From assembly GCA_949297285.1 (NCBI GenBank), contig CASFRL010000052.1, positions 1-64,000 of the forward strand: DNA of 64,000 bases, given 5' to 3'. Positions 20,996-34,786 of this stretch are shown here, in pieces; within the stretch, counting starts at the first letter, position 1; the number at the start of each line of letters is the position of its first letter. The notes below the pieces were generated by a model. That model made no database searches and had not been told where the DNA came from. It saw nothing but the letters and a program-made list of their open reading frames with translations. The stretch comes from an uncultured Bacteroidales bacterium. Lineage in GTDB: Bacteria; Bacteroidota; Bacteroidia; Bacteroidales; Coprobacteraceae. Made by a program: the position numbers and the translations under genes.

Positions 20996-21152
20996 TGTCG
21001 ATTAGGGAAATTTACAAGTATATCGTTTCATGGTTTTATTTGTTTTTATATAATATGTTGATTAGTAAATATATAAAAATCTTCATTCTGCCATTTCCCG
21101 ATTTTTTTGCAAAATAATTATAGCGCAGAAAAATATTTCGAAATAAAAATAT

Positions 21153-21160
21153 TATCTTTG
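21153..21160 (+). promoter_or_regulatory. -7 box upstream of the cobalamin riboswitch
   Basis: TATCTTTG at 21153-21160 fits the Bacteroidota -7 consensus and places the transcript start near 21167, exactly at the edge of the riboswitch aptamer. A -33 TTTG is not clear. Confidence 0.6.
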
Positions 21161-21169
21161 TCGCGCTTC

Positions 21170-21345
21170 GGTTCGTTGTTTCTGTTCAGAAACAATGATT
21201 AAAAGGGAATTAGGTGAAAGTCCTGAACAGTCCCGCTGCTGTAAGCTCTATAAAAAATGTTTTGACAATACTTTGGCCACTGTTTGTTATAAAAATGGGA
21301 AGGCGTTCAAAACAGGAGTAAGTCAGAAGACCTGCCGAACAGATT
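21170..21345 (+). promoter_or_regulatory. Cobalamin (vitamin B12) riboswitch
   Basis: The aptamer core is recognisable: GGGAA-TTAGGTGAAAGTCCTGAAC followed by AGTCCCGCTGCTGTAA (about 21214-21244), GCCACTG in loop 5 (about 21276-21282), and the B12 box AGTCAGAAGACCTGCC (21321-21336). The outer stem P1 is GTTCG (21171-21175) with CGAAC (21336-21340). Riboswitches of this class repress translation or transcription of B12-related genes when adenosylcobalamin or a related cobamide is bound. About 115 nt lie between the B12 box and the gene start and form the expression platform, with the short hairpin GGT-ATTTTC-ACC near 21389-21400. Confidence 0.95.
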
Positions 21346-21460
21346 TGTTTCAATAGCTTTCGAGGAATAAGCTTTTGAGTATTGAGAGGTATTTTCACCC
21401 CAGAAAATGTTCACATCCTTATTTTCGGTTGGCTATTTGGTTGTTTATAATCAAATAAAT

Positions 21461-32926: not shown

Positions 32927-33577
32927 TTATAATGCTTTGAATTCAGATATTATTTGTGTCGGGTTTTCTGTGTTGAATATTGCATTCCCGGCAACAAGAA
33001 TATCTGCCCCTGCTTCCAAAACTCTCTTTCCGGTATTCAGATTAATGCCTCCATCTACTTCGATAAGGGTATGGGCATTTTTCCGTAAGATCATTTCTTT
33101 CAGGGCTTTTATTTTTTCGATCGAGTGTTCTATGAATTTTTGTCCTCCGAATCCCGGATTTACAGACATGATGAGTACCATGTCGACGTCTTGCACGATA
33201 TCTTCCAATAGAGAAACAGGTGTGTGCGGGTTTAGTGTGACACCGGCTTTCATCCCGTTTTGTTTTATTTGTTCTATTGTCCGGTGCAAGTGTACACATG
33301 TTTCATAATGGACATTCATCATATAAGCTCCCGATTCCTTGATCTCGTAAATAAATTTGGTCGGATCGGTAATCATAAGATGTACATCCAGAGGTTTGGT
33401 GCTGATCTTTTTTATGTATTTCATGACCGGAAATCCAAAAGAAATATTAGGAACAAATACACCATCCATAATATCCAGATGCAACCAATCGGCTTCGCTT
33501 TGGTTTACCATTTCTATCGTTGCCTGTAAATTACCAAAGTCGGCAGATAAAAGAGACGGGGCTATCTTATGTGTCAT
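32927..33577 (-). CDS. rpe: Ribulose-phosphate 3-epimerase
   Basis: The start is ATG 33577 (MTHKIAPSLLSADFGNLQAT), giving 216 residues; an ATG 24 bp upstream is less likely. The TIM barrel carries the family residues: IAPSLLSADF, LHLDIMDGVFVPNISFG, DVHLMITDP, VLIMSVNPGFGGQKFI and IEVDGGIN. It interconverts ribulose 5-phosphate and xylulose 5-phosphate in the pentose phosphate pathway. A TATCTTTG box (minus strand, 33608-33601) lies 24 bp upstream, with TTG 22 bases before it. Confidence 0.95.
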   Translation of the reverse strand: MTHKIAPSLLSADFGNLQATIEMVNQSEADWLHLDIMDGVFVPNISFGFPVMKYIKKISTKPLDVHLMITDPTKFIYEIKESGAYMMNVHYETCVHLHRTIEQIKQNGMKAGVTLNPHTPVSLLEDIVQDVDMVLIMSVNPGFGGQKFIEHSIEKIKALKEMILRKNAHTLIEVDGGINLNTGKRVLEAGADILVAGNAIFNTENPTQIISEFKAL

Positions 33578-33712: not shown

Positions 33713-33871
33713 TTAGTTCATAATGTATCCTCCAAGATTTTTCGGCAATTTGTTTTCATAGGTATATGATCTTGCAAATTGTTTAAGGAGTTCTACGGTC
33801 GAACTCTTGGGCTCTACAATGGGATTGTTGGCTTTTTTCGAAAGTTGACGAGGCGTAGCGATTTTTTTCAT
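33713..33871 (-). CDS. Conserved-looking 52-residue protein
   Basis: An ORF of 53 codons, ATG at 33871 and TAA at 33713, lies between the ECF sigma gene and rpe. It encodes a basic protein beginning MKKIATPRQLSKKANNPI, with a helix in the middle (TVELLKQFARSYTYE) and ending LPKNLGGYIMN. The KQFARSY plus LP plus terminal MN pattern recalls very small uncharacterised proteins common in Bacteroidales; I know no function for them. It is on the same strand as the sigma factor, 73 bp downstream. Its start codon lies inside the 3' arm of a long hairpin. It could be a real small protein or a leader peptide; the coding-like composition and terminator placement support a gene. Confidence 0.7.
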   Translation of the reverse strand: MKKIATPRQLSKKANNPIVEPKSSTVELLKQFARSYTYENKLPKNLGGYIMN

Positions 33872-33914
33872 AGGCACTATTTTTTTGTTCTACTTATTAT
33901 TAGAACGTGCCTAT
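33870..33914 (-). promoter_or_regulatory. Hairpin covering the small ORF's start codon
   Basis: On the minus strand ATAGGCAC pairs with GTGCCTAT and, inside it, GTTCTA pairs with TAGAAC, with a bulge of nine bases on the 3' side and an 8-base loop. The final AT of the outer arm is the first two bases of the ATG. Folding would hide the start, so translation is probably controlled by this structure. Confidence 0.6.
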
Positions 33915-33944
33915 TGGGTTTTTATTATTTCGATATGCTTTTTT

Positions 33945-34535
33945 TTATAAAGAAAGTTCTATTCGATTATCTTCGGCCATTTTTCTTATATTTAAAATGG
34001 CATATCTCATCCGTCCCAAAGCCGTATTGATACTTACCTTGGTAGCATCGGCAATCTCTTTGAAGCTCATGTTTTTATAGTAACGCATGATCAGAACCTC
34101 TTTTTGATTGTCGGGCAGTGCAGTTATCAGTTTACGAATGTCAGCACGAATTTGGGTTTGTACCAGAAAATCCTCGATTGTACCCTCGCTCAACTCTTTT
34201 CTGTTGAATATATCCGGGTTCATTTCATCGTTAGACAAGTGATTCTCATTTTTTTCTTGTCGGTAGTAATCGATGATCAAGTTATGCGCAATGCGGGAAA
34301 TCCACGACGGGAATTTTCCCGTTTCAACATAACGGCCCTGCTTTATTGTCATAATTACTTTTACGAAAGTTTCTTGAAAGATATCTTCCGTTAAGTCTTT
34401 ATCCTTGACTATGTAATATATGTAAGAATAAATACGGTTTTTGTATCTGTTTAGAAGGATATCAAAAGCCTCATTATTACCCTTTGAATAAAGTACGACC
34501 AGTTCTTCGTCTGCTCGTGATATTAAATTATTCAT
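33945..34535 (-). CDS. ECF RNA polymerase sigma factor
   Basis: The 196-residue protein has the ECF layout: region 2 (about 25-95, FDILLNRYKNRIYSYIYYIV, DKDLTEDIFQETFVKVIMTI, SWISRIAHNLIIDYYR) and region 4 (about 130-185, LPDNQKEVLIMRYYKNMSFK, IADATKVSINTALGRMRYAI). No anti-sigma factor gene lies beside it; downstream on the same strand is the 52-residue ORF. The unusual linker (NDEMNPDIFNRKELSEGTIE) is acidic. Its regulon and signal cannot be read from the window. Confidence 0.93.
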   Translation of the reverse strand: MNNLISRADEELVVLYSKGNNEAFDILLNRYKNRIYSYIYYIVKDKDLTEDIFQETFVKVIMTIKQGRYVETGKFPSWISRIAHNLIIDYYRQEKNENHLSNDEMNPDIFNRKELSEGTIEDFLVQTQIRADIRKLITALPDNQKEVLIMRYYKNMSFKEIADATKVSINTALGRMRYAILNIRKMAEDNRIELSL

Positions 34536-34786
34536 TACCTTGTAGTATGTTGGTTTAAGAGTAATATTCTTCTATAGGCTTTCGTTTTTTATTTATGTAG
34601 ATGAATTAATGATTTGCTGCAAATAAAATATATTTCTAAAACAAAAAAAAACATTGGGCTTATTTTTCCGTTCTTTAATTGAATATTTAACGGTTTTAAC
34701 AAGCAAAATGTTAATGATTTAAGGATTGGAAAATTTTCGAATAAAAAGATTTTAATAAGGGAAGTGTGTTTCTTCGGTATTATTTG

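Follow-up and report, generated by a model that had tools for sequence, protein, structure and literature searches.

Small soluble or short cytoplasmic anti-sigma factors are represented by NepR with EcfG and by CnrY with CnrH, and the promoters read by ECF sigma factors typically combine a CGT -10 box with a fixed spacing. Type IX secretion is the main protein export route of Bacteroidota, whose genes are mostly without Shine-Dalgarno sites. Two other well-known genes illustrate control at the start codon. In phage T4 the promoter of the lysozyme gene (e) lies within the 5' arm of a hairpin by which the start is hidden in readthrough mRNA, and infC, encoding IF3, is controlled through an AUU start codon. 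Recombinant SigP of P. gingivalis binds the porT promoter; the motif proposed for this sigma factor ends in [AT][AC]T[AG]A (PMC4800418). PorY depends on SigP in the same species, and among its six ECF sigma factors downstream anti-sigma candidates have been named for four and none for SigP (PMC7712824). The literature searched contained no direct protein partner of SigP other than PorX. In F. psychrophilum, type IX secretion genes are driven from SM6 promoters, whose -10 box contains CGT (PMC9723704).

The window analysed here is a stretch of 64,000 nucleotides from an uncultured Bacteroidales bacterium (GenBank contig CASFRL010000052.1), and the features considered are collected in Table 1. 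An earlier note on this DNA had drawn attention to a short ORF lying between an ECF sigma gene and rpe on the same strand, and the coordinates confirmed this arrangement, the sigma gene ending 73 bp before the ATG. The ORF comprises 52 codons and a stop and encodes MKKIATPRQLSKKANNPIVEPKSSTVELLKQFARSYTYENKLPKNLGGYIMN, in which the LP and the final MN remarked on in the note are present. An in-frame GTG at 33877 would give a 54-aa alternative product; several relatives have a stop or a non-start codon at that position and CCT just before the ATG, and the ATG was therefore accepted as the start. GCCT was likewise rejected as coding sequence, some relatives having stop codons directly before CCT.

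Table 1. Coordinates of the small gene, its neighbours and the associated sequence elements in the window
Feature	Position	Strand	Remarks
Gene of the 52-aa small protein	33713..33871	minus	motif, homologues, dN/dS
rpe, next gene downstream of the small ORF	32927..33577	minus	context, outside the proposed system
ECF sigma factor, 196 aa; probable SigP	33945..34535	minus	single-copy orthologue across Bacteroidales
Element GCCTATG(A-rich)TAC[TG]C over the start codon	33851..33886	minus	A-rich stretch 12-14 nt before ATG
Element copy in the sigma leader	34556..34590	minus	GCCTATAGAAGAATATTACTCT at 34558-34579; AUA for AUG
CGTT, putative ECF -10 element	33904..33907	minus	within hairpin 5' arm
AATAA, putative ECF -35 element	33922..33926	minus	14 nt from CGTT
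Hairpin	33870..33914	minus	GCCTAT of start region in 3' arm

A first search matched the small protein in nine of 60 near genomes, comprising its own, four congeners (all positive) and four other genomes. A profile built from these nine sequences matched 59 of 393 Bacteroidales genomes, with one match per genome. The nearest named matches belong to Barnesiella, and named homologues were found in Barnesiella, Muribaculaceae, Dysgonomonas, Tannerella, Parabacteroides and others. One contig labelled Pseudoflavonifractor (L081) carries a Bacteroidales-type sigma together with the small gene, and its assembly is probably mislabelled. Alignment of 90 distinct sequences gave the family motif P..[ST]T...[LI][KR]QFAR.Y; the features kept are the helix [ST]T...[LI][KR]QFAR.Y, with M-K-x-x-[ST]-T at the N-terminus, and a nearly invariant terminal Asn. 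The earlier note had proposed that synonymous codon changes among relatives would support the ORF. In six groups of relatives substitutions fell mainly at third codon positions, and dN/dS was about 0.04-0.33, mostly below 0.2. These comparisons identify the small ORF as a real gene whose protein is under purifying selection. The leader peptide considered in the note was discarded, since the ORF is selected as a protein and the downstream gene differs between lineages, rpe being conserved there only in the genus and its near relatives.

All members tested were without a match in Pfam, NCBIfam and PDB, and no known anti-sigma domain was found by these searches. No signal peptide or membrane segment was evident by eye, and an AlphaFold model of the small protein alone consisted of one 13-residue helix. 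The small protein is cytoplasmic and hitherto undescribed, and its family illustrates how fast-evolving proteins of 44-78 aa without a known domain escape annotation. Rfam gave no match at the small-gene locus; elsewhere in the window a cobalamin riboswitch (RF00174, 103.7 bits) lies at 21152-21353 on the plus strand.

The association with the sigma gene was analysed at 83 loci, that is, at homologues anchored by the presence of the promoter motif described below. In 46 the small gene follows the sigma orthologue on the same strand and in 12 the two are divergent, so that they are adjacent in 58 of the 83, and in most lineages. In 25 the sigma is not nearby; unlinked copies occur in Dysgonomonas and some Muribaculaceae. 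When the whole phylum was searched, other families of Bacteroidia gave weak matches; in eight cases the match was an uninterrupted reading frame of 46-63 codons immediately following the sigma orthologue. Among 30 Bacteroidales genomes without a match to the small-protein profile, the sigma was the single strong match in 28. Many such profile-negative genomes have a diverged ORF of 56-78 aa behind the sigma gene, starting GCCTATG...TCTAC and encoding a C-terminal helix of the P..[TVA][LIV]..[IL][LM].[FY][AS] type, and a version of 44-49 aa occupies the same place in further genomes of the class Bacteroidia. Homology of these distant ORFs is based on position, start element and a short motif, their scores not being significant. 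Judged by this recurrent genomic association, the small protein belongs with the sigma factor across the class Bacteroidia, and the claim that the ORF encodes a genuine conserved protein tied to the ECF sigma was upheld.

The upstream regions of the homologues contain a second conserved feature. Of 90 homologues, 84 have CGTT 25-60 nt upstream of the ATG, usually at 33-39 nt. It is preceded at a fixed distance of 14 nt by A[ACT]TAA, the main form being A[AC]TAA-N14-CGTT. This pattern is kept where the sigma gene is divergent or unlinked. A profile of the promoter region placed the small gene on top in six of seven genomes and also flagged, in three congeners, the gene of PorT, which was named by the NCBIfam equivalog model T9SS_PorT_SprT (251 bits, cut-off 125). 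The pattern A[ACT][TC]AA-N13-15-CGTT precedes porT in 20 of 33 genomes, compared with a chance expectation of 2.3% per 160 nt, and three porT genes of the Barnesiella group are one base off it (AATAT). The motif proposed for SigP resembles the -35 part of the small-gene promoter. Since SigP binds the porT promoter in P. gingivalis and the small gene shares the porT pattern, the sigma factor of the window was taken as SigP; shared target, size and single copy suggest that it is probably the SigP orthologue, and it appears to control type IX secretion.

Other matches to the promoter profile, recurring or single, were near chance level. CGTT promoters before the sigma gene, which would indicate autoregulation, were found in 2 of 59 loci, again at chance level. 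A large regulon was not supported by the strict pattern in five congeners, where matches did not exceed those of a reversed control and nearly all fetched ones were intragenic. A few individual sites were nevertheless recorded. In the window genome, AATAA-N14-CGTT stands 32 nt before the gene of a membrane histidine kinase of 383 aa (L284, contig C98, near 3708); because PorY is SigP-dependent in P. gingivalis, this may be the PorY gene. Two species of another genus (L270 and L287, genomes G293 and G356) show the pattern before the gene of a 475-aa lipoprotein (CIDDDFTTSPSHVLAFSTDTVAFDTVF...), for which NCBIfam and Pfam gave no match. The pattern also lies 24 nt before the gene of an RdgB-like nucleotide pyrophosphatase in the window genome (L149, contig C28, 10367), with similar sequence in the congener G002, and a promoter-like pattern is found about 97 nt before an apparent primary sigma factor gene (L276, G003:C75 3659).

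The pattern common to the small gene and porT, and its retention by unlinked copies, would also be expected if the small protein were a functional component or accessory within the sigma regulon, for instance in type IX secretion, and adjacency reflected shared regulation only. We regard this as rather unlikely, because linkage to the sigma gene recurs on the same strand and divergently, within Bacteroidales and in other orders, which suggests a specific relation to the sigma, and because no export signal or membrane segment is apparent in the protein. The alternative that we prefer is a partner of the sigma factor. The note had suggested an anti-sigma-like partner: the small gene is encoded beside the sigma gene with a putative sigma promoter upstream, as an anti-sigma gene would be, and this part of the suggestion stands, although the family contains none of the known anti-sigma domains.

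The start region itself is conserved at the nucleotide level. GCCT directly precedes the ATG in 88 of 90 homologues, and conservation continues into the codons: Ser at position 5 is encoded by TCT in 53 of 53 cases (23% elsewhere in the gene) and Thr at position 6 by ACT in 60 of 88 (22% elsewhere). A copy of the same element is located 42-50 nt before the sigma ATG in all 59 loci examined, and also in other orders. GCCT is followed in 95 leaders by AUA, AUC or AUU; AUG does not occur, and the third base of this codon is never G. Positions -14 to -12 are A in 93% of cases (58 leaders), and A at -14 to -12 characterises Bacteroidota translation starts (PMC6847099). In another group of Bacteroidales, 19 of 37 further sigma leaders have GGAG[GA] 4-8 nt before AU[AC] (chance 0.7%); this is an upper estimate, since the same signal had helped to select some of the sites from several candidates. 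Start-site signals are thus arranged around a conserved non-AUG codon. Housekeeping-type TAnnTTTG boxes upstream of the element (17 of 58, compared with 3.9% by chance) place it in the sigma 5' UTR, and no significant folding of the leader element was detected.

In nearly all genomes searched, the element is unique to the small gene and the sigma leader. A profile model (R1) gave these two the highest ranks in almost every one of 11 genomes, and a strict search for GCCTAT...TACTC returned 13 matches in 10 genomes, the four outside the sigma leader being unrelated coding sequence. A recurrent third gene with the element was sought as well; the one good profile match, in genome G025, belongs to a 506-aa gene starting GCCTATGAAAAGAAC and does not recur. 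This site (L244, G025:C4 15883, gene start GCCTATGAAAAGAACAATTACTA) is the single third element match in that genome.

One reading of the sigma leader is that it forms a conserved start mimic, in which AUA, AUC or AUU takes the place of the AUG that its small partner has at this site, and a start-codon-discrimination switch sets the ratio of sigma to partner. Ribosome initiation and the strictness of start-codon checking would then determine this ratio. We put this forward as a tentative proposal that is more probably wrong than right. If true, an ECF sigma factor would be governed by such a switch throughout the class Bacteroidia. Sharing of one element by both genes, the sigma copy having a non-AUG codon, makes translational control in Bacteroidota directly testable here. 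The restriction of the element to exactly these two genes, with further matches in unrelated genes or at chance, could otherwise mean that the small protein is an RNA-binding autoregulator: it would attach to GCCUAU...UACUC both in the sigma leader and in its own mRNA, where it would cover the AUG, and so limit translation of both. The protein is indeed basic in the window species; its net charge, however, drops to only about +3 in other members, the family has no known RNA-binding domain, and the translation-start layout of the sigma element accounts for part of the conservation without a binding protein, which makes this explanation clearly unlikely.

The hairpin over the start codon was found as the earlier note had drawn it, with 45 nt, an 8-bp outer and a 6-bp inner stem, and the ATG in its 3' arm, the AU of AUG being paired. 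Its predicted energy is -15 kcal/mol, compared with -3.45 +/- 1.76 in 200 dinucleotide shuffles (z -6.6), none of which was as stable. Conservation of the drawn structure, which the note had proposed as a check, is only partial within the genus: L002 retains the outer stem, L006 has a different hairpin, and L003 and L004 have no significant structure at the site. Over all 83 loci, the leader halves pair more strongly than under permutation (z -9.3, compared with -1.6 and -3.1 in control regions); the full set was used with controls, since too few loci were left after the leaders had been grouped at 70% identity.

The predicted transcript starting after CGTT is unstructured (z 0.1 to 0.3), which pointed to a role of the hairpin in readthrough RNA alone and predicted its loss where the upstream gene is divergent. 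This prediction held. At 64 loci with an upstream gene on the same strand, the mean z was -1.86 and 39% of values were below -2, whereas at 19 loci with a divergent upstream gene the mean was -0.03 and none was below -2 (p 5e-5). At the level of protein clusters the contrast was kept (32 vs 15, p 9e-4), although divergent arrangements are concentrated in a few lineages and the test is thus not fully independent. A wider, more distant same-strand set averaged -1.1. In longer readthrough RNAs the start region was predicted to be, on average, equally open in the same-strand and other groups, so the signal is carried by local structure and not by global folding. The hairpin thus tracks possible readthrough and holds a promoter element in its 5' arm, and its strength behind same-strand genes and absence at divergent loci suggest that it probably silences the small gene on readthrough mRNA.

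A stable hairpin that pairs the start codon, with leader-half pairing well above permuted levels, might instead be a signal-responsive switch on the small gene's own mRNA, such as a thermosensor or a ligand-controlled element. We consider this clearly unlikely, since the hairpin overlaps the conserved CGTT element and is absent at divergent loci that retain the gene, the promoter and the start element. Translational control as raised in the note is therefore kept in part: control at the start codon is likely, while a leader of the gene's own mRNA that responds to a signal is probably not what the hairpin represents, since it overlaps the likely -10 element with its 5' arm and disappears where readthrough is impossible. 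That the transcript is mainly a regulatory RNA of dual function with the element as pairing seed, as the nucleotide-level conservation across the start codon might suggest, is highly improbable given amino-acid-level purifying selection over the whole ORF and very diverged members that keep the ORF and the C-terminal motif and not the RNA sequence.

Silencing on readthrough mRNA can be combined with the promoter and the sigma association into a single mechanism. The ECF sigma would transcribe the small gene from the CGTT promoter, giving a predicted mRNA that starts about 25 nt before the AUG, does not contain the 5' arm of the hairpin and would be translated. Readthrough mRNA from the sigma gene would fold the hairpin and stay untranslated, so that output of the small protein would be proportional to sigma activity. 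The protein would then most likely feed back on the sigma as an anti-sigma or adaptor-like partner; a gene that is probably sigma-controlled and belongs to the sigma makes this the likeliest role. Taken jointly, a sigma-driven CGTT promoter, a readthrough-silencing hairpin and a feedback partner form the reading that we favour, with slightly better than even confidence. An anti-sigma-like function, in which the small protein would bind the sigma, is most likely as a functional guess; in an AlphaFold2 model of a natural readthrough fusion, made from an alignment of only 16 rows, the small part was of low confidence, with a pLDDT of about 40-62, so that the model says nothing about binding. The small protein is a concrete candidate partner of the probable SigP that travels with it across Bacteroidia and has its own promoter and a putatively insulated start codon.

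Compared with NepR and CnrY, the small protein is also encoded beside an ECF sigma gene, is likely to consist, as modelled, of a short helix with flexible flanks, and is expressed from a promoter probably used by its sigma. It differs in that no sequence relation to them was found, in having its own promoter and a start-codon hairpin, and in that its binding to the sigma is putative. As in infC, the sigma leader has a conserved non-AUG codon in start-codon position; unlike infC, its AUA, AUC or AUU is separated from the true AUG by about 45 nt, upstream of which it starts a short ORF or none. The T4 e gene offers the closest parallel for the hairpin, since here too a promoter element lies in the 5' arm and the start codon in the 3' arm, and the hairpin would form only in readthrough RNA. 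In contrast to e, the small gene is a putative regulatory gene on a Bacteroidota chromosome, with an arrangement deduced from sequence. The SM6 promoters of F. psychrophilum resemble the small-gene promoter in the CGT of the -10 box and in the type IX secretion genes downstream, whereas the accessible part of the SM6 report assigns them to no single sigma factor and does not mention the small gene (PMC9723704). With PorXY-SigP the likeness extends to the porT promoter pattern, which is that of the small gene, and to a single-copy ECF sigma of 196 aa, compared with 193 aa for SigP (PMC4800418, PMC7712824). The literature found describes no small partner of SigP, whereas the sigma factor of the window occurs with one across Bacteroidia.
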